Shown piece by piece: positions 19,368 to 50,270 of a stretch of DNA of 64,000 bases (positions are counted from its first letter, which is position 1; the number at the start of each line of letters is the position of its first letter). The stretch lies in assembly GCA_946699065.1 (NCBI GenBank), contig CAMPDV010001777.1, forward strand, positions 1-64,000. Direction: 5' to 3'. Origin of the DNA: Loxodes magnus. Its lineage: Eukaryota; Ciliophora; Karyorelictea; Loxodida; Loxodidae. The notes beneath the pieces are model-generated. The model did no database searches. It had not been told where the DNA came from and saw only the letters and a program-made list of their open reading frames with translations. A program made the translations under genes and the position numbers.

Positions 19368-20285
19368 ATGAAAGATCAATAATCAATTTTTACTAAACTC
19401 CAAGAGAGGAGAAACTGAAAGGATATAACAAGCTACAACATAGGCCTGGTAGTAGAAACGCTTCAAGCCTACCTACAAGCACCACGCAACACAACTAGAC
19501 ACCCCATCGACCGCTGAAAAGCATAAGAAGAAGCAATAAAAAATGATCTCAATTAGTCAATTGAAACCCTTGAATCAACCACAAAAATCGATTTAAGAAT
19601 AATTATGGTTGAGTTGTAGCAGATAGTATATAATTTCTAGCTAAAAGCTGACCTGAATAAGCAGCTATCAATCAAAAGCCTGTAAAAATCCATTTTCATA
19701 GAGAAGACATTAGTCGGTGATCAAGTCACTTAAATCAGAACTTGCTTCTCTTAAAGAGGAGCTGAAGATAGCCAAGAAGTACATTTGGAAACAAACCTAA
19801 AAAGGAAAAGATGCAAAACAAGGAATTTAAGTTTAATTAGTCTAAATAAGCTCCAGTGTTTTTGATGGAGCTAGAACAATCACACATCTCCTAAACTTTT
19901 TTTCAGCAAATTCCCCTTATCAAAATTAAGCTCAGAAAAAGCCATAAGAAAATGCTACATCTGCTGAAAAACTATGCACTTCTACCGAAATTGTTAAGAA
20001 TTTGAAAGGAGTTTGAAGTAATACTGAAGTAAGATAAACTGGCAAGAACGAAGTAAGTAACAGATGCAAATAATTTACAATAGAATGTATTGCAATCCAT
20101 ATGGGAAGATCTACAAAAGAAAGCTATTGGAAACTGAACCAAGAGTACTAATGATAAATATCTTTCTATGAAGAAGAGAACCATCATAGCTTCAAAGATG
20201 GCTTATCCACCTGGCTGGAGTCCCAGCAAAATCCTCTTGTCTTAGGCTGAAATATCCATAAAAGCATTCCAAACTTGATAATTTA
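19368..20285 (+). pseudogene. ORF1-type zinc-knuckle element H
   Basis: ATG 19368 opens a frame reading MKDQQSIFTKLQERRNWKD and PIDRWKAQEEAIKNDL, with TGA as both Trp. A coiled coil follows (SLKSELASLKEELKIAKK, after a shift). Near 19.95 kb comes a perfect CX2CX4HX4C zinc knuckle, CYICWKTMHFYRNC, whose Trp is TGA. The C-terminal motif YCNPYGKIYKRKLL follows. This is the layout of LINE ORF1 or gag-like RNA-binding proteins. At least two single-base shifts separate the modules, one in the A-run before CYIC. A GGCTGGAGTCCCAGC hairpin and an AATTATTAATT-type tail end the element. No convincing target-site duplication was found. Confidence 0.75.
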
Positions 20286-20289
20286 ATTA

Positions 20290-21075
20290 TTAATTATTCA
20301 TTAACATAAGTTACCATTATAACTAATAAATAAGTAATTTAAGCATTTAATTTAAGATAGCCATAAAGAAGATTAATATATATTGTAGAGTCAATATTAG
20401 TATTAATGGTAGCTAAATTATGTAAGTTATTGAAAGGGAGAGATAAGGATTAATTAGTTAGAAGGAGATTTAATTTATATGGATATTTTGATTTAACTAA
20501 TTAGGCTCAAATAAGTTAATGGTATAATAAATCCTTAGTATGCCATAGTAGCCAAATTTTATTATAATGTTCTGTAATTTTCTATTAATGAAAATGAGTA
20601 AGAAATGAATATTCTCACTTTAGGACTATTCTGATTAATCCGTTTAGTAATTTCCTTAAATTGATAATGTTTAAAACTAATAGCAGTCACTTTAATATCC
20701 CAGCTCAACTTTGACAGTTAAAGCAAAGAGCTCTTTAGATAGTAATTTAAATCACATTTATCTCTAAGAGAGCTAGTCTGATTTAAGCAGTTTGAAATCA
20801 TTTGCTTTCCATAGTTACATATATTATAAAGCTTTTTTGTGTGATGAAATAATCTTAGCTTTTTAATTCAAACGATTTAGCTCTATTTTAAATTATTCCA
20901 TTAGATAATTTGTCTCTCTTTAGTATATAAAATAGATAAATTATCTATTAAATTTATGCTTGTAAAACTTGACCTTAAGAGATTAACCTTCTTTTAAGTT
21001 CTAATAAAGAATGCTATTTATAGCTATTTCTAGTCTTCTATATTAAAAAGGAAGGAAGTTTGAGCCAATTATTAT
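20290..21075. other. No recognisable gene
   Basis: AT-rich spacer between two ORF1-type inserts. Nothing in it is recognisable. Confidence 0.35.
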
Positions 21076-21082
21076 ATATAAA

Positions 21083-21783
21083 ATGGGAAATTACTTGAAA
21101 AAATATCTTCTCAAAAGGAATCATCTTAGTCAAGCTACCATTAATAAAATATACTTTAAGAACTCAAAGTTATTCAATTAGAAAATTTTAAACTTTTAGA
21201 ACTGTACAAGAACTTGAAAGAAAAATTGAACGACTGATGATTAACTCATAAGAAAAAAAATTGTAAATAAATAGCTAGGAATTATCAGGATAGAATAATT
21301 AGAAACAAAATTTAATCAATTCGCAGAATTAACTGAAAGCATATTACTGCAAAAAATGGAGATGAATGATCCAATGGATGTAGAGCAACAGCCTACAACA
21401 AATTATATTCCCTATTGGAAAATAATGAGATGTTGATACTGCAAGCGACCGGGGTACAAAGTTAGAAGCTGCTTCCAATTCTAATAAAAATAAAAGAAAA
21501 CAGTAGAAAACTATAGGAAAAATACTTTCAGAATCTTTTGCAATCGAGACGGTAAACTTTATAGGAAAAAGATACTCCAGCTAAACAAAGTAGCTTCAAA
21601 CATATAGCATGCAATTAACGAATTTAATAAGAAATGAACGGGAATCAATCTATCAGAAACTCTCAGAAAAAATAGATTAAAAATCCTTAGAACATATGAT
21701 AAACAAGATCCAAGCAAATATGAAGTCTCTTTTATTTAACTTTAAGCTTTGAATTATGATTAACCAAATAAAGGTGAAATCAC
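21083..21783 (+). CDS. ORF1-type zinc-knuckle element A, copy 1
   Basis: Starts at ATG 21083 (MGNYLKK; the sister copy at 49629 starts MENFLSS). A Leu/Lys-rich coiled coil precedes FNQFAELTESILLQK and DPMDVEQQPTTNYIP. Then comes a zinc-knuckle-like CWYCKRPGYKVRSC, in which the usual His is Tyr and Trp is TGA. Next are RIFCNRDGKLYRKKILQLN and LSETLRKNRLKILRTY. Near the end, AATAAAGGTGAAATCACG is followed by an AATT repeat tail. No in-frame stop is evident before the tail. The early coiled coil looks better in another frame, so one N-terminal frameshift is likely. The inferred role is RNA binding for retrotransposition. The LINE ORF starts 34 bp downstream. Confidence 0.75.
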
Positions 21784-22057
21784 GTAAATTAATTAATTAA
21801 TTAATTTATAAAAAATATGGATGACGACTACTGTTGGTAGGACTTTCAATCAAGATGTCACCATGGATAAGGATGGAAGAACTCTAAAGAGAGATAACCT
21901 AAATTATTTGAGGGTTCTCGCTAGAGTGAAGGTTTGACTGACGGTGGACTCTCTATCCAGAATTCCTAGTTCCAGTCCATATCACTGCCTTTTTTACGCC
22001 GACCAAAAGGCAGTAGATTTAAGATGAAGAAGAAATAACTTAGAGGAGTTCCTTTAT

Positions 22058-22074
22058 TATTTAGATTTTTTAAT
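22058..22074. repeat. Target-site duplication, left copy
   Basis: TATTTAGATTTTTTAAT is repeated exactly at 23051-23067, flanking the minus-strand ORF1-type element. Removing the insert and one copy restores the LINE reading frame. Confidence 0.9.
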
Positions 22075-23050
22075 ATTAATTTTAAATAATTAAGTTTGAC
22101 AATTTTCGAGGATTTTCACCTCTTCATGCCGATTCCAGATTGCTCCGGGATTAAAAAAAGGTTTATAGGTCTCTACTCCTCTCCCACCCATTCGTTCTTG
22201 TTGTCTCTAACTATGTCTTCAGTTCAGCAAAGGTTACTTCCTATAAATATTTCCAAGCTAGTTCATGAATAGTCTCTCTCTAATTTTCCTTTGTTATAGT
22301 TGTCTCATTTTCTTTTGCTACGCTTGCTGCTTTCTCTATTTTCTCCAATAGTGGCTCTTAAAGTTTAGGAATTATTCCCATCTTCTTCATAGGTGTTTCT
22401 CTGAATTACAGTAGTAGCAATTTTTAACCACTTTGATTGGGTTAGCCTTCTTCTTCTTGTCAATTTCCTCTATCAGCATTGGATCGCCTCTTTGCTCATT
22501 AAGTTTCATTTGCTGTTGCAACTTCTCTTCTATTTCTCCAAGCTTGTTGCCCAGCTCCGTCTGTTTCTATTGCTAATTTTAGGATTAGCAGTTCTGACTC
22601 TGTGATATGTTCCAAAATGCATTTAATTCCCTTTCTTAGGACATAAATCTTGACTCGATTTCCTCTTGCTTGTTCAGATTCTCCATTAGCCTGTCATTGT
22701 CCTTCTTTAGTCTCTTAACCTCTTCCTGAAGGTTTAGTACAACTTGGATGAGCTGTTCCATGCTCATCTGGCCAGAAGGATTAAATCCGACACCTCCTGG
22801 TGTAAACCAGACTTTGCCTACTTTCTAGGCTTCTCTAGTGAAGTTGGTGTTTCAGTATGCTTGCTTTTCTGAGCCTTCTTCTGTTCTTCTTGTTAAATTC
22901 CAGGTTGTTAAGGTTGTTAATATTAAGAAAAAGGTTAAAGTTGTGAAGAAGACGACATCCAAGAAGTGGTTTCCTGCTTCCTCCCTTCCTTTTTAGCTTA
23001 GGAAGAGGTGGTATAGAAGCCTTTCTCGAATCCTTCAACCATTTTATTTA
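22075..23050 (-). mobile_element. ORF1-type zinc-knuckle element, inserted in the LINE
   Basis: A 976-bp element on the minus strand. ATG is at 23042, 8 bases from its 5' end. The protein begins MVEGFEKGF, matching MAEGLRKGF of the intact copy at 41123. A coiled coil follows (LIQVVLNLQEEVKRLKKDN). The zinc knuckle CYYCNSEKHLWRRW has Trp (TGG) where the last Cys should be, and one Trp from TGA. The C-terminus includes YKPFFNPGAIWNRHEE. One frameshift lies near 22.83 kb, before VGFNPSGQMSMEQL. The 3' end carries a GAGG/CCTC hairpin and an AATATTAAA-type tail. Perfect 17-bp target-site duplications mark it as a retrotransposition product younger than the LINE. Confidence 0.9.
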
Positions 23051-23067
23051 TATTTAGATTTTTTAAT
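23051..23067. repeat. Target-site duplication, right copy
   Basis: Exact repeat of the 17 bases at 22058-22074; it bounds the 5' end of the minus-strand insert. Confidence 0.9.
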
Positions 23068-24619
23068 TAAATTCATAACAAGCACATTAACGGAGACGTC
23101 ACATTAGTATATTATATCAATTTGAAATATGATGGTTTCCATGCTTTAGCAGGCATCTGTATCTTGACTAAAGATAAACTTTACACTACTAAATAATTTA
23201 AGTAGAAGGTGGAGAGACCTTGCTCAGATTTTGCACAATAAAGCTTGCGTTATACTTTTAACTATCTGCTACTTACATGTCAACAACATGAAAACAGATA
23301 TGAAATATGAAGTTTAAGGCATTCTCAATGGAATAACCTCTACGTTTCCCTATAATGCTCATATCTTCCTTGCTGATTTCAATACACTACACAAAAAATT
23401 TGGTAACAATCTTCTTAATAATTACTATTATAATACACAACTAAAACAGTTTATATTATATAATAACTTGTAGATTATCAATAACCCAGATAATACATTC
23501 ATTCATAGAACTAATAATTAATATTACTGAAACGACTATATATTGGTAATCCAACACTTGAATAATGAATAATTCAATAATTTCTAGGTCCACTATGATC
23601 AATTAATCACGGATCAAATTCCTATATCTGTGACTCTAGTTTATAATGCAACCACAAATGTTCCAAAATGACAATCAATACTCTAATAAATAGATAAGCA
23701 ACTTAATCCAATGGATAGATAAAATTACTAAAATAAGTTTTAAGGAAGTTTTTCTTGCTTTTTGACTGTAGATTAAGACAACTTAGACTTATAATATAAT
23801 TTCATCATCAACTTACTCTAAAATAGTGCAATGAACAATTTAGAAGTAGTCAAATAAAATACTAATTACAATAAACTCACTTGGGATATCACTATGAAAT
23901 GCATAGTTGAGAAAAGAGCAAATTAGAAGTACAAGAAACTGCTATTTAAGAAAGAAAAAATCAATCAAGTGGTGACAGAAGCTCATTCTATAGCTAGAAA
24001 ACTTAGAAACAAATATATATAATCTTATTGGAAGTTGAAAAAGCTTCAGCCTAAAGACAAGTTTCTCAAACTCAATGGGAACCAGCAAATGATGTTCTTT
24101 TAAGCGAAAAATACTATCAACCCTAAAATAAAGAATTAAATGAATTTTAACAAAGAACTCTAGGACATTTTTATTGATAGTTGAGAAACTTTTGTACTTA
24201 ACAAGCACATAAATATTACATAGAAGCAATTTGAATTCAGTAAACGATAAATAGATCTCATTTATAAAGATTCTTAACTTATCAATTATCCATCTTCTCA
24301 CTAACATATTCTTAACGTCAAAACAGCTGGGCTTGATGAATAAAGAGTGAACTCCTCAAGTATACTGGAGAAGAGGTACAAAAAACAAGGCAATGTTTTA
24401 CCAATAATATGTTAAGACTCTAAAGAATTCCATAAAAGTTAAATACCTCCATCATCATCCCTATTTTTAAGAAAGGTATAACTAAACTAGATATTTAGAT
24501 AAATAACTTTTATATTTAATTATATGATTACTACCTAAGTTTTTTTAATTTTAATTAAAATAAGATATTTCATTTTATTGGTATTAGAATTTTTTATATT
24601 CATAATAAAATTTATAATA

Positions 24620-25131
24620 AATAAATAAATAAATTTGATTATAGAGCACGTAGCACTCTCGTTGGTGCGCAGCTCTTTAAAAAAAAATGTTTCATACTGA
24701 CAAGAATATTTGTTACTGATAAAATTATCAGATACTGGTGGACCTTGTTCAATACTGGTATAATTATTCAGTACTGATAAAAATGTTCAATACTGATATA
24801 ATTTTAGAATACTCGTAATCTTTAATACTTGCTGGAGGTCCAAGGACATGGCAGGATTGTGTCTCATTGCATCACCAAGGCAGAGGACGACATGTGTCAA
24901 TTATGGGTACTTAAATTCCCCACCTCTGATGAAGCTCGCAATATTATTTCTTTTTCGTTCCAGAATTAAAAATAAACGAAACCAAGTCAAGCCAATATCG
25001 AAGGTCTAAGAATCTTATGTCTCGAGGCCAAACCAAAGCAGAGGAAGACATAAAGTCGATTATGGGTACTTAACTTCCCCAACCTCTGATGAAGATGACC
25101 TTGTTGTTCACCTTCGAACAACTATGGCGGT
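24620..25131 (+). mobile_element. SINE-like dimeric repeat, copy 2
   Basis: Most complete copy in sense orientation. It has a TTTGATTATAGAG lead, the head hairpin at 24643-24676, a spacer of CAGTA-type words, two related ~110-bp units, and the end AACAACTATGGCGGT followed by a TTAAAAATATATAATAAT tail. The first unit reads EVQGHGRIVSHCITKAEDD then MCQLWVLKFPTSDEA. Most differences among the three copies inside this stretch are synonymous (AAG/AAA, GAC/GAT, GCA/GCT, TTA/TTG). That hints the element once encoded a peptide. It forms the right arm of an inverted pair with 17437-17925. Confidence 0.8.
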
Positions 25132-25249
25132 TTTAAAAATATATAATAATATGATATTAAAATTAAAATTTTACATCATGAGGTATATCAACCATTCTGG
25201 AAGATAGTAGTTTCAGCTTTCTGCAGTTTAATAAAAATGTATAAGACAT

Positions 25250-25440
25250 ACTATTTTTTCGAAATTTGAAACCTGGATTTTTTCAGATTTCTTTTCCTCT
25301 TTTTACATGTCTTGGTCGTTATCGCTTCTTTCTTGATTTTTTAAATTTTATTGTTAAGTTTCAACACGTTCAATTCAATCATGATTCTTCTTATTTCTTC
25401 TCTTTTACTCTTGAGTCCCTTTATTCCTTTGTTCGGCACA
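25250..25440 (-). pseudogene. Lys-rich coiled-coil coding fragment
   Basis: The minus strand reads KREEIRRIMIELNVLKLNNK and then a basic stretch containing CKKRKRNLKKS. This pattern suits a coiled coil with a basic tail, as in ORF1 proteins, but no zinc knuckle is visible. The plus-strand 92-codon ORF here (25266-25544) is a shadow. Confidence 0.35.
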
Positions 25441-25559
25441 ATAAAAATTTATTATATGGTTATTTTCTTCTTAAATATTCTAAATTATTAAAATTAATAA
25501 AAATAGATATAAATTTATATTTTTATTATTGGTTTTTATTTTAAAATATAAATATTTAT

Positions 25560-28120: not shown

Positions 28121-28129
28121 TTTATTCGA

Positions 28130-28335
28130 ATTTTTTATGAATTTTCTTCCAAAGCTACAATCTTGAGTTCAGTATTTTGATAATGTGTATGCTCTTGAAA
28201 ATTTCAATATATCTAGCATGACCTGTTAGAAATTTAAATCCTTTTAGAAAGATAAAATCTTCCAGTTTAGATAATGCATCTTCTAGGTCCACTTTATGAC
28301 TTATAAATTTTCTGATTGTGATTAGAAGTTAATTT
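28130..28335 (-). pseudogene. Unidentified coding fragment
   Basis: A minus-strand frame reads SHKVDLEDALSKLEDFIFLK, then FLTGHARYIEIFKSIHI. It stands out from its very AT-rich surroundings by base composition and regular residue pattern. No family is recognised. It is possibly the body of an old short ORF element. Confidence 0.4.
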
Positions 28336-28789
28336 TTTAAATATATTTTCAATGGTCTATTTATTACTTTGATTACAAAATTATAAATCTAATACTCTTT
28401 ATATGTCTAATTTTTATTCCTTTTGTTAATAAGTTATTAAAAAAAAAATTTAGATTTTCATACTAAGAGAAAGCAATCAAGTAATCTTAATTTTTCATAT
28501 TATTTTCTATTTTAATTTTAATCTCTTCTTCTTGTATATAGTTTAACTGTTTTTTTATGATTTTTTGATTTAAATACTAAAGTATTAGATAAATTAACTT
28601 TCATAAATTTAAAATAGTTAACAAATATAATTAGCATTTATTTTGACTTTAAGTAAAAGATATAAAATTTACAGAATTAGCTATTTTTTTATCTCCAAAT
28701 ATAATATAAATTTTAAGAATTAGAAACTAAAATTATGATATTAAGACTTCTTCTATTAAACATATAACTTCATTTATTTAAGTTTTAAA

Positions 28790-29030: not shown

Positions 29031-29039
29031 TTAAGTTTA

Positions 29040-29950: not shown

Positions 29951-29959
29951 GCAAAAATT

Positions 29960-30655
29960 CAAAGACTTAAATTAACGAATCAATTCTCTAACCTATACTA
30001 TACAACAAATATTAAATGAAAATAAATAATTAAAAACTGAAATTAATGCAAAGACTTCAATATCGCGAGTTAATTAAGAACTGAAAAACGAGCAAAAAAT
30101 AGAAAAAATTAATGAACTAAGCAGCTATGTATAACTCATTTCCCATTACTGTCCTAATAACGATCCTATAGCAATTGAAGAACAGAATGCAAAAGCTCTT
30201 TCAAAACAAATACAGTTCTAAAACTTTGAAAACGACAAAAAATATCTAAAAATAGATTGTGACTCAAAGTTCGTAGAACAAGACGTTTATACTGTTAGAA
30301 GATTGGGCATATTTTTAGAAGAAACAATAATTAAATACCTAAAAGATATGAAATAATATAACTAAATCATATTGCTCTCAAGAAGGAAAAATCTAAAAGA
30401 AAAATATTTACAGTGGAGATTAATTACTATTAGATAGTAAATGCTAAAAAAAGAAGAAAAAAATGTTTGTGCTAAAATGAGATTGAGGCAAGATTCCTGT
30501 GATAAGAATGTTAAAATTGTGCAAGCCGTTACGCAACAGAAGAAGTGAACTCTAAAGAAAACTGCAATTATTCTATGATCGCATGAAAAAATCCTATCAT
30601 CTCATAAAACAACTTATAAAAATATCAGTGTTAAACCCAACAATAGAAATATCAC
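29960..30655 (+). pseudogene. ORF1-like element C with zinc-binding remnants
   Basis: The first frame gives a coiled coil (SLTYTIQQILNENKQLKTE, then KNEQKIEKINELSSY) and DPIAIEEQNAKALSKQ. A second frame from ~30.28 kb reads LYCQKIGHIFRRN, a likely zinc-knuckle remnant without its first and last Cys. It continues to KKCLCQNEIEARFLWQECQNC, a further Cys cluster in which TGA is the Trp. The order of coiled coil, acidic MDVEQ-like block and knuckle follows the other ORF1-type copies. The extra CXC...CXXC cluster is not seen in them. It is broken by at least one frameshift, and element ends are not defined. Confidence 0.55.
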
Positions 30656-30659
30656 TTTA

Positions 30660-31759: not shown

Positions 31760-31773
31760 TAATGCAATATCTT
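31760..31773. repeat. Target-site duplication of element B1, left copy
   Basis: TAATGCAATATCTT is repeated exactly at 32621-32634, directly after the ATT tail of the element between them. Confidence 0.8.
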
Positions 31774-32620
31774 GAATAATCACTTTCAAAAAAATGGATT
31801 AATCTCTTCGACTCTCAAAGAATTAACTTAAAAACCTAAAGAGAAAAGCGGCAAAAAAAATTTAGAAAAAACAATAGCAACGAGAGGAGTCAAGTTCGTC
31901 ATCAGAAGGTAAAGTATTGGTAGGATCTATAGAGATAAGATAACCTAAGAACGAATCTGATCAAAAACTTTAAATTTAACTAGATCAAATGTAAAAATTA
32001 ATTTCAAAGTATGAAGAAATAGCTTATAACTAAGGAGAAAAAATAAGGGAATTAATGAATAGCATAGAGGATTAAAACAACGAATTATTAATACTCAGAA
32101 GACAGCTCATTCAAAGCAATTTGATAACGGAAGAACAACTCTGAACTTAGTCACAATAAAACTTTAAATATGACACGAAAATGGAAATAGAAAAAATACC
32201 AATAGAATTAAAAACAGAATTGAATCCAGAAAAAGAAATGATTGCTACAAGTTTCATTAAAAGACTATAAAATATAGAAAATAAATTATCATAAAAAAGA
32301 ATGAAATAAAGACAATAATACAACTTTGTTGATGTTGCAAATCAAATCAACATATTTTAAAAAACTGTTGATAATGAAAGAAAATAAACGAATAAGAGCA
32401 GAAAAGAACATGGAGACAACTCAATAAACTATGAATAACTCCAACAGGGATCTACAAATAAAAGCTTTTTGCAAGACCACTTGAACGGTTACAGTGGTAA
32501 CCTTCCACTTAATAAAAAGGTCGTGGATCACACCCACGTTAAAAAAACTGTCCGCAGGAACTGGTTGCAATTCCAGAGAATGCAAAACTCTACTAACTTT
32601 AAGTATATTATTATTATTAT
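31774..32620 (+). mobile_element. ORF1-only element B, copy 1
   Basis: An 847-bp insert bounded by a 14-bp target-site duplication. ATG 31794 follows a 20-base leader. The frame is unbroken to the tail: MDQSLRLSKNQLKNLKRK, a Ser/Glu-rich patch, and a coiled coil (LISKYEEIAYNQGEKIRELM, NNELLILRRQLIQSN). Then come ELNPEKEMIATSF and a basic C-terminus. One in-frame TGA (32142-32144) reads as Trp. The zinc knuckle found at the matching place in copy B2 is absent. The last ~100 bases form two possible hairpins (CGTGG/CCACG and CTGG/CCAG) before AAGTATATTATTATT. There is no TGA stop before the tail. The inferred role is an RNA-binding coiled-coil protein mobilised by a LINE in trans. Confidence 0.85.
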
Positions 32621-32634
32621 TAATGCAATATCTT
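32621..32634. repeat. Target-site duplication of element B1, right copy
   Basis: Exact repeat of the 14 bases at 31760-31773. Confidence 0.8.
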
Positions 32635-35394: not shown

Positions 35395-35990
35395 AACTGA
35401 GAGAGATCTATCTAAATTATTGTTAAAGGCAAAGTTCCTCTTAGCGTTGCCAGCTTCTTGAGTATCTTTTCCCTGTAGAATCATTTCTTAGAGTAATATA
35501 TTTTGGTTAGTCTCTCGCATAATTCTCTTGATTTTTTTGCTTTAAAATTTTTGAACACTAAACTCTGTCTTATTAGGTGATTCGTCTACTTACAGTAATA
35601 ACATCTTTTGAGAACTCGTTTTTATCTTGGCTATTGTTCTTTAGGTTTTTTTACAATAAGGAAAGGAGAGTATTGCGATAGGTTCAACTTCCATCTTGTT
35701 CAGATGAATCTAAGGTTGAAGTTGAAGTTGAAGTTGGAAATTAACTGTCACTCCAGGAAACTCCACTTAGGATTCTTTCAGCTTGGTGATCTCTTCCTTG
35801 AGATAATAAATAGTAGATATGTGATTTTTGAGGTATATATACTTTATTAAAAAGTCCTATCAGAAAATTACCCTAGAAGACAATAAAATGTTCTAGCTAG
35901 CCTTTATTAATTACTGTAAAGTACTCGTCTTTTATATTACTCAACTATTTCGACACAATATTATCTTAAATATAAATAAATAAAAAATGC
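35395..35990 (-). pseudogene. ORF1-type zinc-knuckle element, decayed
   Basis: On the minus strand a frame possibly starting at ATG ~35989 leads to LKEEITKLKESQVEF, a QLQLQLQ run and NKMEVEPIAI. This is the coiled-coil and acidic block of the ORF1 family. After a shift comes RCYYCKQTNHLIRQS, a zinc knuckle whose last Cys is Ser. A stretch KIYYSKKWFYREKILKKL then resembles the basic C-terminal motif of the other copies. Frameshifts and the lost Cys mark it as dead. No clear tail is visible at the 35.39 kb end. The plus-strand 80-codon ORF at 35608 is a shadow. Confidence 0.65.
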
Positions 35991-38270: not shown

Positions 38271-38287
38271 TAACTTAGTTCGGCAAT

Positions 38288-38505: not shown

Positions 38506-38559
38506 AACCATCCTTTTTTTTAATATTAGCTTATTAAATGTACCCAGTGCTTTACTCTT

Positions 38560-39885
38560 TTTAGGTTAATTAAATCTTGAAATTAGAGGTTCTTCCTATA
38601 GACTAATATGTTGGTTAAATGTTTAAAAAATAATGAAAAATGGTTTATTTAAATAAAGTTATAAATGATTTCAGAATGTTTTATAATAATATAGCTTTAA
38701 ACATATATATCTGTTATTTATATTTGATTAGAATATATTTTGGTAATGCTTCTATATTCTTATTATTGATTAGTTGTTTAAATAATTCTTTATTATAATA
38801 TCTGCTTTTTCTGTATTTATTATATTTACTATTAGAAATAAGAAAAGTAAAATTAAAAATATTTGAGTATTTTGATTTATATATTAGCTAATCTAGCTTA
38901 TATCTTACTAATAGTTTTATCTATATATGGAAAATAAACTTTTAATTTTTAGACTATATTCTGTAGTGTCTATTTTTAATATTTCTATTTTAATTATTTT
39001 AGTTCTTATGACAATTTTGACTAAAGTTGAAAATTTATAAAATAAATGTTGTTAATTTAAATAATGTAAAAAAGCAAAAGTTTGAAGATAGAATGATGGA
39101 AAAGAATAAGATTTTGTAATAGTTTGATATTAAATAAACTTTAAATATTTAATATTAATTTAAAATAATTTATATTATTTTATTATTAATCACGAGATCA
39201 AATGTACATTTTTTATTAGTCTCTAATTTGCTTTATAGTCTATTATTTTGAAGTGAAAATCTTTAGTTTATTAAATATTTATGGGCTAAAATCCCTTTCG
39301 TTTAAAATTAATTACTACTATAAATACTAATTTATTTTTATTTGTTTTGTGTCCTATTAACCTTCTTCCTATTTCGGATGCTTGAGAAATCTTTCTAAAT
39401 TTTTAATATCATCATATTGTAAAGAGTTTCAAATCTAAATTAAGATACTTAAAATATTCAAGAAACATATTTTAAAACAATTTCTGAAAAATAAATATTA
39501 TACTTAACATAATCAGTTTGCTTAGTATTACCACTTTCTTTTATTTTATCCATTTTTAATTAATCGAATTCTGATTTAATAAGAATCAATCATAATTTTA
39601 TATAATTCCTTCAAATCTATAAAATAACTTGTTCAAAAGCAGAGTTTAAAAAATAATATTATATTGATTATATAACTAAAAATAGTAATTTCTTTTACTA
39701 TAGTTAAATTTATATAATATTTAATTATTTATTTCTTTTATATTAAGTTTATATTACTTTTATTAAGAATATACTTCACCCTTTCTTCTAAAGATCTCCA
39801 ATTTTTATACATTTGTATTTTAAACAATCCTATTTTTTATTTAAATTATCTTTAATAAAACAATATTTAAATATTACCATCTTAT
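38560..39885. other. No recognisable gene
   Basis: Very AT-rich spacer. Nothing recognisable. Confidence 0.45.
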
Positions 39886-39891
39886 GAAAAA

Positions 39892-40670
39892 ATACCTAAT
39901 CTAATTATCTCTTTAAGAATTTACTTAGAAACTTAAGAGGAAAAACGATTCAAGAAATGGACAAAAACCAATAGAAATATGAGGAATCAAGATCTCAACA
40001 GAAGGTATAGGAACCTAAGAGATAGGGAAATCTTAAAATTAAATTGACCAAAAAATTCTAAAATTTACTAGACTGAATACAAAAACTAATCTAAAATATG
40101 AAGAAATAATTACAATTAAGAGTAAAAAATCAGAGAATTAGTGAACATATTGACGACTAAAATAATGAGTTATTAATACTACGTCGTCAGCTAATCTAAA
40201 ATAACTTAGTTTCAGAACAGTCTCTTTATGAGCAATCACAACTGATAGTTTTCAATTAAAAAGACGTGATTATAAAAAGAGACTTAATTAAATTAATCGA
40301 TTAAGTAGAAACTAGAAGGAAAAAATGATATTAATTTACAAAAGAGAACAGACAAATTGGAATGAAAGTGCTTTATGAAACAAATCCAGAAAAATATTCC
40401 AAAAACTGCTGATACTGCTATTTAATTAATCATGTTTTACGGCAATGCTGTTCCTGAAAATAACTTTTTTTGTTAAAAGAATAATTAAGAACATGATAGA
40501 TGATGAACAAACTCTGAATAACTGAAAATAGAGTTTTTAAATAGAAAATTTAATTAAGAAATGAAGAAAATTATGAACAGTAACCTAACTCATATAAAAA
40601 AAGGCTTTCCACTTCAAAAAAATTATAGCAGGTATCTGGTTGAAAGCCTAAAGAAAGCTAAACTTAAATT
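39892..40670 (+). pseudogene. ORF1-type element B, copy 2, with zinc knuckle
   Basis: Aligns with B1 from its first codon, which is ATA here instead of ATG. It keeps the coiled coil (NNELLILRRQLIQNN-like) and the NPEK block. It then has a zinc knuckle absent from B1: CWYCYLINHVLRQC, a good CX2CX4HX4C whose Trp is TGA. About eight in-frame TGA codons occur, fewer of them at obvious Trp sites than in B1, so some may be decay. The end carries CTGG-rich sequence and AAGTATATTATAATTATATTAT. The lost start codon and lack of target-site duplications suggest an old copy. Confidence 0.7.
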
Positions 40671-40715
40671 TTTAAGTATATTATAATTATATTATATTAT
40701 ATTATATTATCAATT
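40671..40715. repeat. ATT/TATAT microsatellite tail of element B2
   Basis: TATTA repeats directly follow the B2 body. They correspond to the ATT tails of B1 and of the 41.1 kb element. Confidence 0.7.
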
Positions 40716-40719
40716 ATAT

Positions 40720-41095: not shown

Positions 41096-41097
41096 AT

Positions 41098-41115
41098 TTA
41101 TAAGTATATCTAGTA
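41098..41115. repeat. Target-site duplication of the intact ORF1 element, left copy
   Basis: TTATAAGTATATCTAGTA is repeated exactly at 41948-41965. The element's A-run and ATG follow immediately. Confidence 0.9.
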
Positions 41116-41947
41116 AAAAAAAATGGCAGAAGGTCTCAGGAAGGGTTTTTTTCCAGCTCCATAGAAAAAGGAAAAAAAACCAGAGACTTCTAATTCTTCT
41201 CCTACCACGTCTTCTTTAATAATATAATAATTTTCTTAGGCTCTTTAACCCCCAAATTTAGAAAAATAAAGATAATCTTAAATTGAATAAGAAATTAAAT
41301 CAACAGAAACTGACTAAAGCAAGCGAGACTTTTTACTCCCATAGCCACGATCAAGCAACTACATGAAAAGTGGTAACTAAAAAATAATGTAGAAATAGAA
41401 AAATGATGAATAGCTAATAATAGAATAACTTATGAAATCTATCCGTAACCTATAAGAAGAAGTTTAAATACTAAAGAAAGAAAACCAAAAATTACTATAG
41501 AAAAGTTAAAACAATGAAGAAAGATTAATGAAACAGGAAATCGAAGTGAAACTTTTGGGAGAAAAAAGAATTTAACCTTAAACTTTAGCTGAAAATAAAA
41601 TGGAACTAGAATACACAAAACCCTTAGAGATAACTCCTCCCAGAAGGATCGTCAAGCTGTGCTACCTGTGCAAATCAAAATTCCACACATACAAGAGATG
41701 CAAGATATATTTGGATAAACAGAGAAGAAACAGTGAAGAGATTTGGAGAGAACTTTCAAGAATTTATGTAGACAAGGATGGAAGAATATTTAGAAGGAGG
41801 CTTTTTCAAGGGAGTGCCAGAACTCCAAAAAAACTGGGAGTCCCGAACTTTTATTTTAAACCTCAAGGAACGAACTCTGGAGGTATGTATTGAAGGGGTT
41901 TAAAATCCCCGGAGATACGAACATTTTAATTTAGTATATTATTATTA
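41116..41947 (+). mobile_element. Complete ORF1-only retroelement
   Basis: An ~830-bp unit from an A-run before the ATG to an ATTATTATTA tail, flanked by an 18-bp target-site duplication. It holds only the ORF1-type gene. The 3' untranslated part has a GGGG/CCCC hairpin just after the TGA. At the same place the copy at 22075-23050 has GAGG/CCTC, a compensatory difference. The perfect duplication and open frame mark it as the youngest insertion seen here. Confidence 0.9.
41123..41893 (+). CDS. Intact ORF1-type zinc-knuckle protein
   Basis: 256 codons plus TGA at 41891-41893, with no indel. Gln is mostly TAA/TAG and no TGA is internal. MAEGLRKGFFPAPQKKEKK opens a Pro/Ser/Gln-rich N-terminus. 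Residues ~105-150 form a coiled coil (SIRNLQEEVQILKKENQK). MELEYTKPLEITPP precedes the zinc knuckle CYLCKSKFHTYKRC (CX2CX4HX4C, residues ~181-194). IYVDKDGRIFRRRLFQ then carries the basic motif shared by the family. It resembles the nucleic-acid chaperone ORF1 proteins of LINEs, and the inferred role is binding the element RNA. There is no endonuclease or RT in the element, so movement would need LINE enzymes in trans. The ATG lies only 8 bases from the insertion boundary. Confidence 0.9.
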
Positions 41948-41965
41948 TTATAAGTATATCTAGTA
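41948..41965. repeat. Target-site duplication of the intact ORF1 element, right copy
   Basis: Exact repeat of the 18 bases at 41098-41115. Its first bases overlap the ATT tail, so the true duplication may be 15-18 bp. Confidence 0.9.
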
Positions 41966-41969
41966 TTGT

Positions 41970-43470
41970 AAAAATTATACTTAATTATCCGTTATAAATA
42001 AATTTGAAGTCTTATTTTTATAAATTTAAATTAAGGCTTTTCACTTATTTAAATTAAAGATTTAAATAATTTGTTCTATTATTTATTTTGCTTTGCAATT
42101 TTATTTCCTTTAATGATGATTTTAAAGTTCTCTAATTTTTAAATAAATTTAAAAAATATAAATTGTTTATTTTTAACATACGTAACCTAATCTCCATTAA
42201 CTATCTGTTTATAATTTTTAATGATGATTTTACAAATTAAAATTCCTATAATTTAGAGATTTTGTAAATGTTTAATAATTTTAAATGTAGAATATAAATT
42301 AGTGTCTAAAATATAACTAATTTTGATTTAATTAATTTAAAATAAGTATATAATATTTTATACTTATCTAAAATACCTAAATTATTTTCAATCTACAACA
42401 GTTTATATAATTTATTCTCATTTAATGAAATAAGATATTTGACTAAGCCAATTCAATATTAAAAATTATTTAGATTTGGGTGTAGTTCATAAATATATCT
42501 AAACATTTACTTCAGCTTAGTGTTTTTCTTTAAATAAATCTAAATTTATGTAAATGTTTATAAATTTGAACTTTTAAAGATTTTATGACATCACTTCTTA
42601 AATATTCTATGACAGTAAAATTTAAAATTTTAGTCTCTTTAAATTTTAAACCTTATTTACTATTATAGAGAATATTAACTTACAAAAGTAAGATAATTAA
42701 TAATATTTCAATATTTTTACTTTTCCTACTTTAAATAAAACAGATTAAAAAGTAAAATGGATTAAGTAATTAAATAGCGTAATAGCATAATATACAGATG
42801 AATATCACTAAAAACTTTCATATAAATCAATAAATATTTACTAGCTAAATTTTATTAGGTATTTATTTAATTATAATCCTTTTATATACATTAATGCTAC
42901 TTAACTATCTATTTTTATCAAATCTATAGATTTTTTCAACTAAATTCAGTATTAATCAAATAAGAAAATTATATGTATACTTTAAAACGAATGCTTCATT
43001 TTATTTTTATAATCACCCTATTATGGATGTTTATTACAAATTAAATAATTATACAAATATTAAATAATCGCTAAAATAATCCAAATGTAAACATTTTATA
43101 AAATTAGAAAGAAAATGCTTCAGAACCATCTATAATTAATCTGAATTATCACTTACAAATATAACTATTAATATCCTACTTATAAAGTAAATAGCAATAA
43201 CTAAACGCATCCAAACAAAAAGTTAATTAATTAGTTAAAATTTAATTAGAAATATTTTAAGCTTCTTTAGAACTAATGCTTATTAGAAAAAATAAATACT
43301 TATAGTAATTCAAAATTTAGGCAGATGTTTCAAAATTGTTTAATTATATTTTATTTATAATCTTAAATAAATTCAGGTAACGCCATTTTCTTTTTTTCAA
43401 GAACCAATCAAATCTTATTTAAATTTAAAATTAAGCCTCAATTTAAAATAAACAGTAAAAATAAGTTTCA
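41970..43470. other. No recognisable gene
   Basis: Very AT-rich spacer. Nothing recognisable. Confidence 0.45.
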
Positions 43471-43479
43471 AATAGTCAG

Positions 43480-43830
43480 AAAATTCAAGTTAAATAAAGG
43501 AATGGGAATAAGAGTTCAAAAGAAGAATAAAATGCTACGTGTACAGTAAACGGTTCTGATGAAATAATGTAACTAAATAAAAGCATTTTGAGAAAAAAAA
43601 GATATTTATAAAATTTTATTAAGAATATATCCAACATAAAGCGGTAGATCTATAAAAAAAAATTATATAATTCAAATTTTAATCCTTGGAAAAAGAATAT
43701 CTATGATCTCTACAAGCAGAACATTAAAAGATGGGGCGATAATGAAATGCTACACTGCCTACCTAAGCCTAGTAGGATTTTTAACCAAATAAATGGAGAC
43801 AAGCTGATAGAATAGATCAGATAATTATCT
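43480..43830 (+). pseudogene. ORF1-like relic beside the LINE 3' end
   Basis: A plus-strand frame contains IKCYVYSKRFWW, which could be a zinc knuckle that lost its second Cys and His. IFIKFYQEYIQHKAVDL follows. Another frame then reads NPWKKNIYDLYKQNIKRWGD, LHCLPKPSRIFNQ and NGDKLIEQI. It is a weak match to the ORF1-type family and clearly broken. Confidence 0.4.
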
Positions 43831-45542
43831 ACTAACATTTTTTTTAAAATCCTTTAACTTTTTTTATTTGATATCTGTTCCAATGTCAGGAATTTTTTAA
43901 GTAGTTTTTCCTATTCTTAAATCCTTTCGAGAGCTAATCTGAGTATTTTTTCTGCTCTTTCTTTACATTTAAAAGACTAAATTTCTCTTTCATATTAATA
44001 ATTCTTATTTAAATTTACTAAAAATGTCTATACTATATTATTTATAGTAATAAAAAAGTTTGAATTTTGGAACTCTTTCTCAACTTTTCTACTCTTGTAT
44101 TAAATTTAATTCTAAATCATTTTTTACAGTTAATGTGTTGATTTATTTCCCTTTTTTTAAATAGAAGTTCTTTTTCAAGCTAATCTTTTTACTCAATGAT
44201 TTCTATTCTTCTTCTGAGCAGTTTTTTATGAAAAATCTTGATTCTAAGGTCAATTTTTTTGAGCTACTGAATACTTATAAAGTTCTCATTTAAATATTTT
44301 TGGTTATAGGTTAAGAGATTTAATAAATCATAATTTTTAAAGTCTTTAAATTCTTCAATTAACTCTTTCAAGACCTCACATGTTGGAATATGTCTAAAAG
44401 TATCAAGGTCTCCGCAAGAACATGTTTCAAAGCTTTAAATGTTATAATACCTTTACAGTAAATCATATTAGAAGTTATAGGAAAATGTTATAAGCTTATA
44501 AATCGATACAATTTCTCTTACCATATAAGATTAGAGCAAGTGTAGATTGGGAATTATGAGGTGTTATTGTCAATTTAATTTACATATAAGTATGCTGTAG
44601 GCATTAAGTTCATTCTTATTATTGAATCTAAACAAAATGTTTGTCTTATTTTATTTCAAACTACTCGTAGGAATTCTTTGCTTTCTTTAACATCCAAATA
44701 ATCAAATTAAAAATGCAGGGAAAGTTTCTATAATTTTTTTAAATAATTAAGATTACTATTTTTTGTTTTATTATAGAGAAAAGCTATATCAGACTTAGGA
44801 TTTGTTTCTTTTTCTTCAAGTAATTTGAGATAAAATTTAAAGTATCTCATGGATATATAATATTCAAATGGATGTCAATTCAAATCTATGAAGCAAAATT
44901 CGTTAAAAGAGGATCTAGGACTCTTAAATGCATATCTTGATACTTTTCTCTGACTAATATTTATATCTTTTTTGATTTTCTTTATTTCTTTTAGAATAGC
45001 TCATGGTATTATTTCCGATCCATATTCAACTTTCGATAATATAAAAGATTGAAAGATTTATTTAAAATTTTAAGGCGAAATATTTCTATATTTTGCAAGT
45101 TATAGCAAAGTTCCATTCACACACTTTCTATACTTTCGGCAAATTTCATAAAAATGAATTTTGTAATTTATAGTTCATTAAAATTAAATCCTAAATATGT
45201 AACATTTTTGACTTTTTTATAATGTTATTATTCAAAGTAATATTAAAATTGTAATCATTCTATTTTTAATTCTTCTTAAGAAAACATATATATTCACATT
45301 TTTCTGTATTAATTGATAGTTATACTCAACTAAACACTTTTTAAACACCTTTTATTAAAGAATTCATATTATCTTCATTTAAATCAATAACAAATCTTTA
45401 GCCCATGCTTTAGTTACAAAATAACAGTTCAAAATTTTAAATATAATCTAATACCAATATCATAGAAAATTATAGCAAGTACTGGTCCATGTGAACTTCT
45501 TTAGAATACACCATTGTTATATTATATATATTAATTTTTAAT

Positions 45543-46045
45543 ACCGCCATAGTTGTTCGAAGGTGAACAACAAGGTCATCTTCATCAGAGGTTGGGGAAG
45601 TTAAGTACCCATAATCGACTTTATGTCTTCCTCTGCTTTGGTTTGGTCTCGAGAAATAAGATTCTTAGACCTTCGACGTTGGCTTGACTTGGTTTCGTTT
45701 ATTTTTAATACTGGAACTAAAAAGAAATAATATTGCGAGCTTCATCAGAGGTGGGGAATTTAAGTACCCATAATTGACACATATCGTCCTCTGCTTTGGT
45801 GATGCAATGAGACATAATCCTGCCATGTCCTTGGACCTCCAGCAAGTATTAAAGATTACGAGTATTCTAAAATTATATCAGTATTGAACATTTTTATCAG
45901 TACTGAATAATTATACCAGTATTGAACAAGGTCCACCAGTATCTGATAATTTTATCAGTAATAAACATTCTTGTCAGTATGAAACATTTTTTTTTAAAGA
46001 GCTGCGCACCAACGAGAGTGCTACGCGCTCTATAATCAAATTTAT
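45543..46045 (-). mobile_element. SINE-like dimeric repeat, copy 3, inside the LINE RT
   Basis: About 503 bp starting ACCGCCATAGTTG on the plus strand and ending at the TTTATTTA beyond the head hairpin (45998-46031). It is nearly identical to the copy at 24620-25131 read in reverse. It interrupts the RT between its palm motifs, so it is younger than the LINE. Flanks are microsatellite-like (TTATATTATATATATTAA) and no target-site duplication could be defined. Confidence 0.85.
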
Positions 46046-47853
46046 TTATAACATTCTTGATAATTTTCCATCTGATAGAAATATAACATCTAGATCTTTA
46101 TGAAATTATTTAATATTATTTATTAGTGCTAAAGGTATTTTAATTCTTCTTAAATGATCAAAAAATAGACGTCTATCAATATTATCAAGCATCTTTTCAA
46201 CATCAATAAGAGTAGAGAGCTAATGCTTCTTCTTTCCTAATCTTCTATACAAATCATTAATTGATTATAAGGTTCATATTTAGTGCAAAGTTTATCTTCT
46301 CTTCAGAAATCCCTAATTGTGAAGGATGTATAATCTTTCATTATTCAATATATTCATATAATCTTTAAGTAAGCTTTTTATCATATATTTTAAGGATGAT
46401 GTTTATAAGTAAAAAAATTCTCCAATTTCTTCAATCACTTTTTGATCCCTTTTTGTAAATAGGAGGATTATTATTTGCTTAAGTTCATTCGGATTTTTTT
46501 GATTTCTTAGCATGTTATTTATAAATTTCAAAAGCACAAAATAAAAATCTTTATTAACATATTTACCGAGTTCTATTTTAATGCCATCAGCTCCATTTTA
46601 TTTGTTATTTCCTAATTTCTTTATAATTGTTCAAATTTCATTTAAATGAAATAGATCGAACTCTTGTCTATATATAGGTACCTGCTCTTATAAGAAATCA
46701 CAATTTCTATAAATATTATCAATTTTTTAATTACACTTTCATATTTCTTCCTCATCAATGTTTTTGTGCTTATTAAGAACATTATTTTCCTAATTGTATA
46801 TGAAATTTGAAAACCCTTCTGAATCCAAATACATATTATTTCTCTTTCTTGGATTCAAAAACTTTTTGTTTACTTAAATATTTTAGTAGGAGATTCATTC
46901 ATTTATTCTCTATTTTTTTGGCTTATTTTCACTTGTATTTCCAGTAATTACTTTTTATCTTTTAATAAGCCAACTTCAAAACTATCTAGTTTACCCTTCC
47001 TTATTATTCTAAAGCTTGCTGATAAGCTATTTTTGCTTATTTTGCTGCGTTAAAACTCTTAATAATATTTATTGGAAGTAAATTAAAGTTATTATTCTAT
47101 GTAACTTATCCTAAGATTTAATCTGCATTATTAATGAGTAAATGTCTTATAAAATAGTATTATTAATCTATATTATTTTAATCAATTATATCAAAATTAA
47201 TCAAGCATCATTCAAATAAGACTTTATATTTAGATCTAATTTCTAAATTTTAAAGTTTATTAATCTTAAAATTTATTCTAGGAGTTAGAATTGGTACGTT
47301 TCTATTAATATTTTAGATAAGTAAGTTAAACAGTATAGAAAAGTGATCTGTATCAAGTCAAGTGTTATGTAAAATTTAAAATAGTGTAATCTAATTAATG
47401 TTAATATGATAATTGACTATATCATAATCTTTGCAATAAATTTTATGGTTTACTCTACTTCTAAAAACAACAAATCATGTAGCATTAACTATTTATAAAT
47501 CATATTCTTTAATAAAATTATTTAATCTTTAAGCGTTATTTTATTAATTTTATGAATTATTACTCCCATACTCTTACAAAAGAGCATAAAAGTCTCCCAA
47601 TAGCATAAGGGCTTAATCTCCTACTTCATTAAGGATATGTTCTAAGTTTTAATATGATTAGTCTTTGACAGATAAAGTTTTTTCCTCTGTTGGCAAATAA
47701 TATGTTGCTAAATAAATGTTATTAACTTTAATTACTAAGAAACGACTATTTTAATCGCCAAAGTCAATTTCAATTTGTCTCTAATCAAGTTCTTCTTTAA
47801 CAATAAAGCAAACTCTGCTGATCTTTAGGATTATTCACAACTTTTAAAATATT

Positions 47854-47870
47854 TTCTATATCCTTAAATT
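47854..47870. repeat. Target-site duplication of element D2, left copy
   Basis: TTCTATATCCTTAAATT is repeated exactly at 48179-48195. Confidence 0.9.
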
Positions 47871-48178
47871 AATTAATTTTAGCTTAAAGAGTTTTGGACT
47901 GCAACTTCTTGTAGTTTAACGACCCCAACACTCCCTTCATGGGATAATGGGGATATCCTGTTGCTTTCGAAATGCAGCGGCCAGGGAGTTCCATCGCTAT
48001 GGGCAGCCAGGCTTCAAGCCCCTACCAGAAGTGGATAATCAAAAGGAAGGCGTTCCCTTGCAAAGGTTGACTTTGATCAGGGACTTTCTCAGCGACAGGA
48101 AAGGAACTTGTTCCTAGCCATAAATCCAGAAAGTATGATTCAGAAGGTCAATCTCAGCTCCCACCATCTTTTTAATTA
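47871..48178 (-). mobile_element. Small ORF element D, copy 2, inside the LINE endonuclease
   Basis: A 308-bp GC-rich insert with perfect 17-bp target-site duplications. Its minus-strand ORF starts at ATG 48167, 11 bases inside the boundary: MVGAEIDLLNHTFWIYGQE, FLSLRKSLIKVNLCKGTPS, GRGLKPGCPQRWNSLAAAF, PIIPWRECWGRQ, SPKLFKLKLI. Trp comes from TGG and TGA. No TGA stop lies before the AATTAATT tail. It aligns with copy D1 at 34065. Removing the insert and one repeat joins KFKDIENILKVV of the LINE. It is the shortest mobile unit here, and its protein family is unknown. Confidence 0.85.
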
Positions 48179-48195
48179 TTCTATATCCTTAAATT
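48179..48195. repeat. Target-site duplication of element D2, right copy
   Basis: Exact repeat of the 17 bases at 47854-47870. Confidence 0.9.
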
Positions 48196-48499
48196 TATAT
48201 TGGAATGAAGTCTTAATATTATCAAGTTTCATTAATTAAAAATATATATTCTTTATTATAGAGTAAATTATTTAATACTTAATTATTTTATTTAGATTTA
48301 ATTCATATTGCAACGAGCTATTTTTAATTAATTTGCTTCTGCTCCTCCTTTTCAGTCCTGGGTCACAAAAGTAAAGAACATTTTAATTATTGTGAATTTA
48401 AATATGGAGTAACTTTGGAGCTTAGATTATTGAATTTCTATTACAAATAATAATAAATAAAGTTAATGCATCAGATTGCTATGTTAGTTTTTAATCTAT

Positions 48500-49250
48500 T
48501 TTAATTTTTACTTAATTTCGTTCAATTGTGGCCTAATTTAATTTACTAGATAATGTAATAAATCTAGTTTCAACTTAAGCAAAGAGATTTTGATTTTGTC
48601 ATTTTTTCGTTCTTATAAATTAAATAAATTTTTAATTTTTAAAGTTATTTCTTTTAATTATTTCTTCAACATCAACTTAAAATAATTAGTTATGTTACAT
48701 AAATTTCAATTTACTTTTACTTAATTATGCATCTTACTAACTTCTTTAACAATTTATATTGATTCTACTGAATTTTAATCAATAATGAGATTTAATTATT
48801 TTTTATTATAAAATTTGAAATGTCTACACTGTAGCTTTGTTTTTATTCATAAAGTTGACTAAATTAAACCATCTGAGTAGCAGTGTCTTATTTTAAAGAT
48901 TTTTAAATTAATTAAATCTTTGATTTTGTTTTGTCTTTCTAGAGCTATGATATCTCTACATAAGCATCTAGTTTTAGTTCGCATTAATGTTCATAATATT
49001 TTACTAATTAAATAAGTTTGAATATCAGAATATTCTTTAAAAATCTCTGTTAATTATTTTGCATAGAAAATTGCTATATTTTAGATATCATTTTCTTTCT
49101 ATGTTAATGTATTTTAAATTTTAAGTTCGTTTTCTTGTATTTGTTCTTAGCAAATAGTAATTAAGTGATGTTTCTTCAATATTTAAGCATCAAATTCTTA
49201 TCTAATTTCTTAAATTTAGTTTTTATAATAGCAACATTGAAAAAGAATGC
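48500..49250 (-). pseudogene. LINE 5' ORF1-like coiled-coil region
   Basis: The minus-strand frame gives FYAKQLTEIFKEYSDIQTYL, then TRCLCRDIIALERQNKIKD and HCYSDGLIQSTLWIKTKLQC, with TGA as Trp. A long Lys/Leu/Gln coiled coil follows (LLKLKLDLLHYL, QLNEIKQKLKQIKN). It lies directly upstream of the endonuclease on the same strand. The position and coiled coil suit a LINE ORF1 or an N-terminal extension of ORF2. The CLC...HC...QC cysteines may bind zinc, but this is not the CX2CX4HX4C knuckle of the short elements. Confidence 0.55.
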
Positions 49251-49628
49251 TAAAAAAAATAATTTATAAATTACTCAGATTTATGTTAAAGCTAAGTGGA
49301 TGAAACTAAAAATATATAAAAAAAGTAATATTTAAATAGATTTAATATAAAATACAAAGAGTAACACTAGTTACATCATGCCATATTACATTTTTTATTT
49401 TTGCATTCATTTTTAATTTAATTTAATTAATAATTTTAGCTTATAAATATAGTTATCATATATTTTTTAATAACACTAAATTTTAAATATATCTTCTTTA
49501 TTTATTTTTTCTATTTTTATTCTTATTTACTATTCTAATAGAAATAATAGTATAAAGAATTAAAATTAAATCATAGAAATTAGATACTTTTAATTAATAT
49601 TTTTTATTATATAAAAAAAGAGAAAAAA

Positions 49629-50270
49629 ATGGAAAATTTCTTGTCATCAGTCTTTTCTTAAAAGGTTTCATCTTAATCAAGAAACGAATATTAAAAAATA
49701 CTTTAAGAACTCAGAGTCATGTAACAAAAAAATTTAAACTTATTAAGACAAGTATAAGAACTAGAAAATAAAACCGAATTTCTGATGATCAATGTGTAAG
49801 ATAAAAAAATTGGAAATAAATAAGAAGAAAATGTTAAAATAGAATAATCAGAACCTAAATTCAATCAATTCGCAGAATTGACGGGAAGCATACTCCTATC
49901 AAAGCTTTTGATGAATGATCTAATGGACGTAGAATAGCATATCCCAATAACTTATATTCCCTAACGGAAAATTATGAGAATCTACTGCAATTTTGAAGGA
50001 AAACTTTATAGAAGAAAATACTCCAACTAAATAGAGAAGCTCCGCATATTTAACATGCATTTAATGAGTTCAATAAGAAATGAATGGGAATATACCTATC
50101 GGAAACCATTAGAAAAAATAAATTGAAAATCATGAGGACTTATGTTAGACTTGACCCAGACAAATCGAAATTTCTTTTTATTAACAAAAAATTATTAATT
50201 CGTGGAAAACCAAATAAAGGTGACTCCACGTTAATCAATTTTTATTATTATATTATTATAAAATTTTACT
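49629..50270 (+). pseudogene. ORF1-type element A, copy 2, zinc knuckle deleted
   Basis: ATG 49629 starts MENFLSSVFSQKVSS, then a coiled coil (ILQELRVMQQKNLNLLRQVQ), FNQFAELTGSILLSK and MDVEQHIPITYIP. Relative to copy A1 an in-frame 99-bp stretch is missing, including the whole zinc knuckle. The junction lies at TGCAA, which occurs at both ends of the lost segment in A1. A one-base loss near 50.01 kb shifts the frame before LSETIRKNKLKIMRTY. The 3' end has CGTGG (50201-50205) pairing with CCACG (50226-50230), then TTAATCAA and an ATT-rich tail. Trp of KKWMG is TGA. Confidence 0.75.

Follow-up and report, generated by a model that had tools for sequence, protein, structure and literature searches.

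Several families of short ORF1-only elements, probably moved by LINE enzymes, in the karyorelict ciliate Loxodes magnus

Many long interspersed nuclear elements (LINEs) require the protein of their first open reading frame (ORF1), which is often dispensable for their parasites, the short interspersed nuclear elements (SINEs); SINEs themselves are non-coding and have a pol III promoter. HAL1 is an L1 derivative with an L1-type ORF1 (coiled coil, RRM and C-terminal domain) and a poly(A) tail. It is non-autonomous and encodes ORF1p only, and its long-kept coding capacity, as described in two reports, implies that ORF1p is needed in cis and ORF2p in trans (PMC5753468, PMC3627910). TRE5-A.2 of Dictyostelium discoideum is described as a natural derivative without any ORF2 that is moved in trans by the TRE5-A.1 ORF2 (PMC5391098). 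Among ciliates, Tt.REP of Tetrahymena thermophila is a non-LTR (long terminal repeat) element with a zinc-finger ORF1 and an ORF2 for endonuclease and reverse transcriptase (RT) (PMC6564038), and two complete LINE families of Loxodes magnus, rnd-1_family-27 and rnd-1_family-19, are 5-6 kb long and carry PF14529 and RVT_1 (PMC11441545). Here we analyzed a 64,000-nucleotide window of the L. magnus genome (contig CAMPDV010001777.1, C1777:1-64000; assembly of 705.7 Mb in 7843 contigs) that contains a set of short units, designated u41, u32 and so on, each with a single ORF1. These units are probably non-autonomous non-LTR retroelements of 0.6-1.0 kb that encode ORF1 only, fall into several deeply diverged families and would be moved in trans by LINE ORF2.

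Like HAL1, the units are non-autonomous, encode an ORF1 protein only and have kept their coding capacity. They differ from HAL1 in protein layout (coiled coil, CCHC knuckle and hairpin, with no RRM match), in the (TTA)n tail of u41 and u32, and in forming several deeply diverged families for which no parent LINE was found (one full LINE inspected). TRE5-A.2, in contrast, is one derivative of one known LINE and inserts near tRNA genes; Tt.REP, compared by description only, is autonomous, with two ORFs and a conserved 54-bp tail; and rnd-1_family-27 and -19 are likewise autonomous, unlike the units. The units share with SINEs their short length, lack of autonomy and probable dependence on LINEs, whereas u41 encodes a protein under selection and SINEs encode none. 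An earlier note on this DNA had called such elements unusual; they are unusual, though not unprecedented, as HAL1 and TRE5-A.2 are already known (PMC5753468, PMC3627910, PMC5391098). In the literature searched we found no account of ORF1-only elements in karyorelicts, and section 11 of PMC11441545 makes no mention of them. The novel aspects are their scale, how deeply the families have diverged, and coding that persists in families with no matching LINE found so far.

Four units in the window are discrete insertions bounded by target-site duplications. The first, u41 (41116-41947, plus strand), is an intact 832-bp ORF1-only element whose ORF (41123-41893) encodes 256 amino acids; it contains a knuckle (41660-41701), a GGGG..CCCC hairpin and a (TTA)n tail, and its duplication (41098-41115 and 41948-41965) is identical at 18/18 positions. 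The 847-bp ORF1-only element u32 (31774-32620, plus strand) has one frameshift by eye, a knuckle at 32327-32368 and the tail TTTAAGTATATTATTATTATTAT, and is flanked by a 14/14 duplication (31760-31773 and 32621-32634). The 976-bp ORF1-only element u22m (22075-23050, minus strand), also with one frameshift by eye, lies in the endonuclease coding region of a LINE relic, LINE A, within a 17/17 duplication (22058-22074 and 23051-23067). The fourth, u49 (49613-50230, plus strand), is a knuckle-less 618-bp element of the u21 subfamily with the same ends in other copies and a 20/23 duplication (49590-49612 and 50231-50253). Random window pairs gave equally good repeats in 0/1400 cases for u41, 0/1405 for u32, 1/1394 for u22m and 3/1388 for u49; altogether the duplications of four of the nine window units tested were significant.

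These duplications bear on one alternative, also named in the earlier note, that the units are ordinary LINE fragments consisting only of decayed ORF1 regions. Some proximity would fit it: ORF2 relics lie near several units, and immediately downstream of u21 and of the plus-strand unit of L060 come ORF2 pieces in the same orientation. However, because target-site duplications set their ends, u22m, u32, u41 and u49 are not pieces of longer LINEs, and the same conclusion holds at 34 genomic u41 sites with identical ends. In addition, u22m interrupts LINE A, and its flanks minus one repeat copy form one frame into the endonuclease motif; this is supporting evidence only, since every frame is open under the code used here. 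A unit of the L060 type, 95% identical over 879 bp, is found in L069 as well, and the 383 bp read downstream of it show no ORF2 by eye. We therefore regard the fragment explanation as highly improbable.

Four units recur across the assembly in many full-length copies, and some copies are very recent. Searches returned first-look candidates, that is, unconfirmed copies, of which the closest 40 per unit were scored; alleles occur among both. For u41 there were 1383 candidates, and the best 40 were each ~100% identical from base 1-3 to base 832. These 40 (39 genomic copies plus the window copy) represent 34 distinct sites, and the copy length was 832 bp at 34/34. Exact direct repeats of 10-18 bp flank the element at 33 of the 34 sites, a length of 10 bp being reached by 4.3% of mismatched flank pairs. 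Wherever a duplication is present, 0-17 mostly A/T bases lie between it and AAAAAATG, and the (TTA)n tail varies in length. The best 40 of 2751 u32 candidates were 99-100% identical and nearly full length, and the best 40 of 5436 u22m candidates were 93-100% identical over their full or nearly full length, with one short piece besides. Of 2380 u49 candidates, the best 40 were 97-100% identical from base 1 or 2 to base 618, with the same ends, yet the window copy lacks the knuckle; a knuckle-less ORF1 element such as u49 may still multiply. A second contig, C922, carries near-identical copies of u49, u32 and u41 on the opposite strand and is probably the other haplotype.

An ORF1 profile was also run on a non-random 200-kb sample from four large contigs, where nine matches exceeded 12 bits, against a maximum of 11.7 in the single simulated null. 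Extrapolation would give ~3e4 copies if the sample were representative, which is not claimed. Ten profile matches in the sample were inspected: three lie at edges, two have repeats and five have nothing longer than 12 bp. The two with repeats are the minus-strand units of L060 (840 bp, 17-bp repeat, inside a LINE) and L059 (831 bp, 15-bp repeat), both starting just before an ATG; their repeats are supporting evidence only, because tandem arrays inflate the null (95th percentile 162). The related unit in L069 lies near a tRNA-like gene, by eye.

The ORF1 of u41 is under purifying selection among young copies. Among the 34 copies, 13 variants are synonymous (160 sites) and 11 are non-synonymous (608 sites), which gives a ratio of non-synonymous to synonymous polymorphism (pN/pS) of 0.22 (P=3.3e-4). 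The more distant pair u21/u49 gave a corresponding divergence ratio (dN/dS) of 0.24-0.25, from DNA blocks chosen without regard to frame, with the C-terminal block lengthened by 54 bp. Mismatches in this pair at codon positions 1, 2 and 3 numbered 28, 30 and 49, a third-position excess (P=0.005), and the two parts of u49 are in different frames. Purifying selection on ORF1-only copies, which the earlier note had put forward as support for its idea, is thus found for u41 and for the pair u21/u49. The signal is weaker for u32/u40 and u41/u22m, because synonymous sites are saturated and the alignment is protein-guided; an N-terminal codon comparison of u41 and u22m was not used, since the assumed frame was not the best one.

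The ORF1 proteins share a layout of coiled coil, acidic block, usually a CCHC knuckle, a short helix and a beta-hairpin with a basic face. A structural model of the u41 protein (8 sequences; mean predicted local distance difference test, pLDDT, 70.6; predicted template modelling score 0.34) contains a helix at residues 82-148 (pLDDT 90-94 over 91-140), followed by the knuckle region, a helix at 194-212 and a hairpin at 214-224, whose short strands (214-216 and 222-224) bear the basic motif. The long helix plus knuckle region would correspond to a LINE ORF1-type layout of coiled coil and nucleic-acid-binding domain, as predicted by the model. Pfam searches for RRM gave no match for u41, u40 or u22m, and a protein database search returned 0/229 candidates at E<=1. 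At the nucleotide level, each unit has a short A/T-rich leader, ORF1 and, at the 3' end, an AT-rich tail together with a small hairpin that is predicted for some units. The 3' tails are alike beyond chance within the pairs u41/u32, u32/u40 and u49/u21 (1/400 random each), and tail hairpin folding reached a z-score beyond -2 for u41 and u49 only, of six.

This anatomy also speaks to the idea that the units arose by retrocopying from a host gene family for CCHC proteins, as processed pseudogenes. Copies do begin just before the ATG and hold one ORF, as retrocopies might. However, poly(A) is lacking: in u41 copies, a fixed sequence is followed by a terminal (TTA)n. Each family also has many full-length copies, and there are several diverged families with their own ends. 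A host origin of this kind is improbable.

Detection of units in the window used leave-one-out profiles, with five simulated windows per profile as the null (maximum 12.0 bits). These profiles recovered u19, u21, u22m, u32, u35m, u40 and u41 at 24.7-45.0 bits. The unit u49, outside the profile set, scored 13-23 bits in 5/7 runs (6.1 without u41 and 8.6 without u21) and is 74-77% identical to u21 in DNA across three blocks. All seven units named in the earlier note are therefore real, six through leave-one-out profiles and the one at 49.6 kb through DNA similarity to that at 21.1 kb. Its three further suspects fared unevenly. The unit at 35.4 kb, u35m (35451-35760, minus strand), is a degraded C-terminal part confirmed by profile (27.1 bits, null maximum 8.4). 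The one at 43.5 kb, u43p (43366-43822, plus strand), is likewise degraded; it failed by profile (4.3 bits) and is real by DNA match, being 75% identical to the L060 unit over 476 bp (E=7e-84). The one at 30 kb, u30 (30277-30474, plus strand), is a possible degraded unit with weak scores of 9-15 bits in 6/7 profile runs. The other units, all on the plus strand, have approximate ends: u21 (21085-21798), a relative of u49; u40 (39880-40690), in one frame with TGA as tryptophan and with a knuckle at 40407-40448; and u19 (19366-20290), degraded, with a knuckle at 19953-19994. Frameshifts persist in u19, u21, u22m, u32 and u49. The GC content of the units is 26-38%, against 17-19% in four flanks.

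The knuckle is usually present, as had been proposed. With TGA read as tryptophan, the six frames of the 64 kb contain four exact CX2CX4HX4C motifs, at 19953, 32327, 40407 and 41660, all inside previously named units (those at 19.4, 31.8, 39.9 and 41.1 kb); simulated windows gave 2 in 40, and reading only TAA and TAG as glutamine leaves one exact motif in the window. By eye, the knuckle of u21 is degenerate, with Y for H, as are those of u22m and u35m, where the last C is replaced by W and S, respectively; u49 has none.

The earlier statement that endonuclease and RT are missing is correct for the units themselves and not for the region, which holds at least two LINE ORF2 relics. LINE A (21970-24606, plus strand) comprises an endonuclease and the start of an RT, its start and RT part being placed by eye; the endonuclease matched PF14529 at E=0.0012, below the curated cut-off. 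LINE B (44117-48342, minus strand; 5' limit set by a weak match, E=0.001) comprises ORF2 endonuclease, RT and C-terminal part. The two endonucleases match each other at E=2.3e-13 (default statistics) and the LINE in L061 at E=2e-18 and 5e-21 (low-complexity filter off). Pfam RVT_1 gave no match on the LINE B pieces at E<=10; the RT was read from motif order by eye and from the sole PDB match at E<=10 (8c8j, E=0.056). Two candidate links between relics and units were rejected: a common ORF1 C-terminus in LINE A ('DKDGR' motif) was seen by eye only, its profile score of 0.7 bits falling inside the null, and a common 3' tail of LINE B and u22m was not convincing (20/400 random as good).

A closer relationship to LINEs is conceivable, in which particular LINEs gave rise to the units by internal deletion, several times over and with the parental ORF1 and ends retained, strictly as in HAL1 or TRE5-A.2. 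The evidence comes mainly from C97, the one full LINE inspected, in part (two pieces), whose start is a chosen boundary and may not be the true 5' end. Its RT is above the cut-off, and its ORF1 region contains a CX2CX4HX4C knuckle by eye. The 5' part of C97 resembles u41 and u22m (alignment scores 36 and 34, 0/300 random each), and HAL1 itself is reported to have arisen several times (PMC5753468). However, the same 5' part is unlike u32, u49 and u21 (107-293/300 random as good), the 3' ends of u41, u22m, u32 and u49 differ from that of C97, and the unit families are just ~19-38% identical to one another in the conserved domain. The unit profile also missed the C97 ORF1 region and the sequence preceding the L061 endonuclease, scoring 0.3 at best, and Pfam found nothing at E<=1 in the 5' regions of C97 and L061. 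Thus, a full LINE with the same ORF1 did not emerge: C97 has a different ORF1, and only its 5' part is like two of the units. We consider the derivation by deletion possible but somewhat doubtful.

We favor the reading in which the ORF1-only units probably borrow the enzyme of larger elements, because they have no copying enzyme of their own, recent copies and a selected protein. Unit mRNA would be translated to ORF1 protein, which would bind mainly its own encoding RNA (cis preference), and the resulting ribonucleoprotein would be copied into new sites by LINE ORF2 endonuclease/RT, giving target-site duplications. In its favor, the assembly has 3403 RVT_1 candidates, and the 1.5-kb flanks of eight u41 copies had no match to the LINE A and LINE B endonuclease/RT profiles, although these profiles, being built from two relics, may miss other LINE families. 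Several results weigh against this reading. Significant duplications are missing in u21 (350/1399 random as good), u40, u19, u35m and u43p, at the u41 site L038, and in 5/7 testable units of the 200-kb sample (none >12 bp). Duplicates or alleles account for six of the 40 u41 copies, and u41 diversity is underestimated because the analysis used the 40 closest among 1383 candidates. The u41 model gave no significant Foldseek match in the PDB, with Lin28A zinc knuckles among the weak ones, and Pfam CCHC gave no match above cut-off. The 3' end of C97, with another hairpin and (ATTT)n, is unlike those of u41, u22m, u32 and u49 (83-138/300 random as good).

Taken further, the units could be satellite retroelements that encode a protein and form an old superfamily in their own right, one that stayed ORF1-only throughout its divergence and was never re-derived from a living LINE; each family's own ORF1 would serve as a cis-acting passport to LINE enzymes, and knuckle-less elements such as u49 would be a second layer of parasites. 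We offer this only tentatively. Several multiplying ORF1-only families, at least one with a selected protein, are a natural experiment on why an element would carry ORF1 and rent ORF2. The proposed cis preference of ORF1 is directly testable because of the deep divergence, the one family that has spread despite an apparent loss of its knuckle, and the very young copies.

The code of the window is of the karyorelict type, with TAA and TAG as glutamine and TGA as tryptophan, as described for karyorelicts in PMC11441545. Good evidence for TGA as tryptophan comes from a protein encoded at 13245-15935 (plus strand), whose B-box (E=2.3e-8) and kelch (E=1.4e-9) Pfam matches lie in a single frame through internal TGA codons; with a coiled coil by eye, it is TRIM-like. 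Across the assembly, RVT_1 had 3403 candidates, of which the best 150 were scored, all above the cut-off, and most of these 150 contain about 8 TGA, 4 TAG and 8 TAA codons. Given the B-box/kelch frame and the TGA codons inside RVT_1 frames, table 6 alone, in which TGA is not sense, was dropped. With TGA treated as unknown in alignment, TGA stood opposite TGA or TGG at 5/10 positions in ORF1 pairs and at 0/6 in the LINE A/LINE B endonuclease pair. In C5131 and C20, RVT_1 matches are evenly spaced, often by 2532 bases, in a tandem array containing RT.

A 550-bp repeat occurs at 17436-17928 (plus), 24607-25156 (minus) and 45518-46067 (plus), two copies being 95% identical; it is present in both LINE ORF2 relics and splits LINE B. 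It carries 19-mer tandem repeats, and its last ~60 bp match the C97 LINE 3' end at 95-97%, features of a putative SINE-like element with a LINE-type tail. An assignment of the 19-mers to Tlr termini of Tetrahymena germline DNA was dropped, since TGA is a sense codon in this DNA and a LINE has the same 3' end as the repeat. Just downstream of u49, at 50520-50999 (plus strand), a peptide resembles by eye a LINE endonuclease start (SQIRIGHVNINGIANKF), like that of L061; it had no tblastn match at E<=1e-3. A Pfam frame scan covered three frames of the plus strand from 17 to 47 kb and, on the minus strand, three frames at 37-52 kb and a single frame at 17-32 kb; apart from PF14529 it returned one sub-cut-off QueF match, taken as chance. 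A small-subunit rRNA fragment (RF01960, E=1.6e-44) lies at 51300-51800 on the minus strand, in a repeat-rich region.

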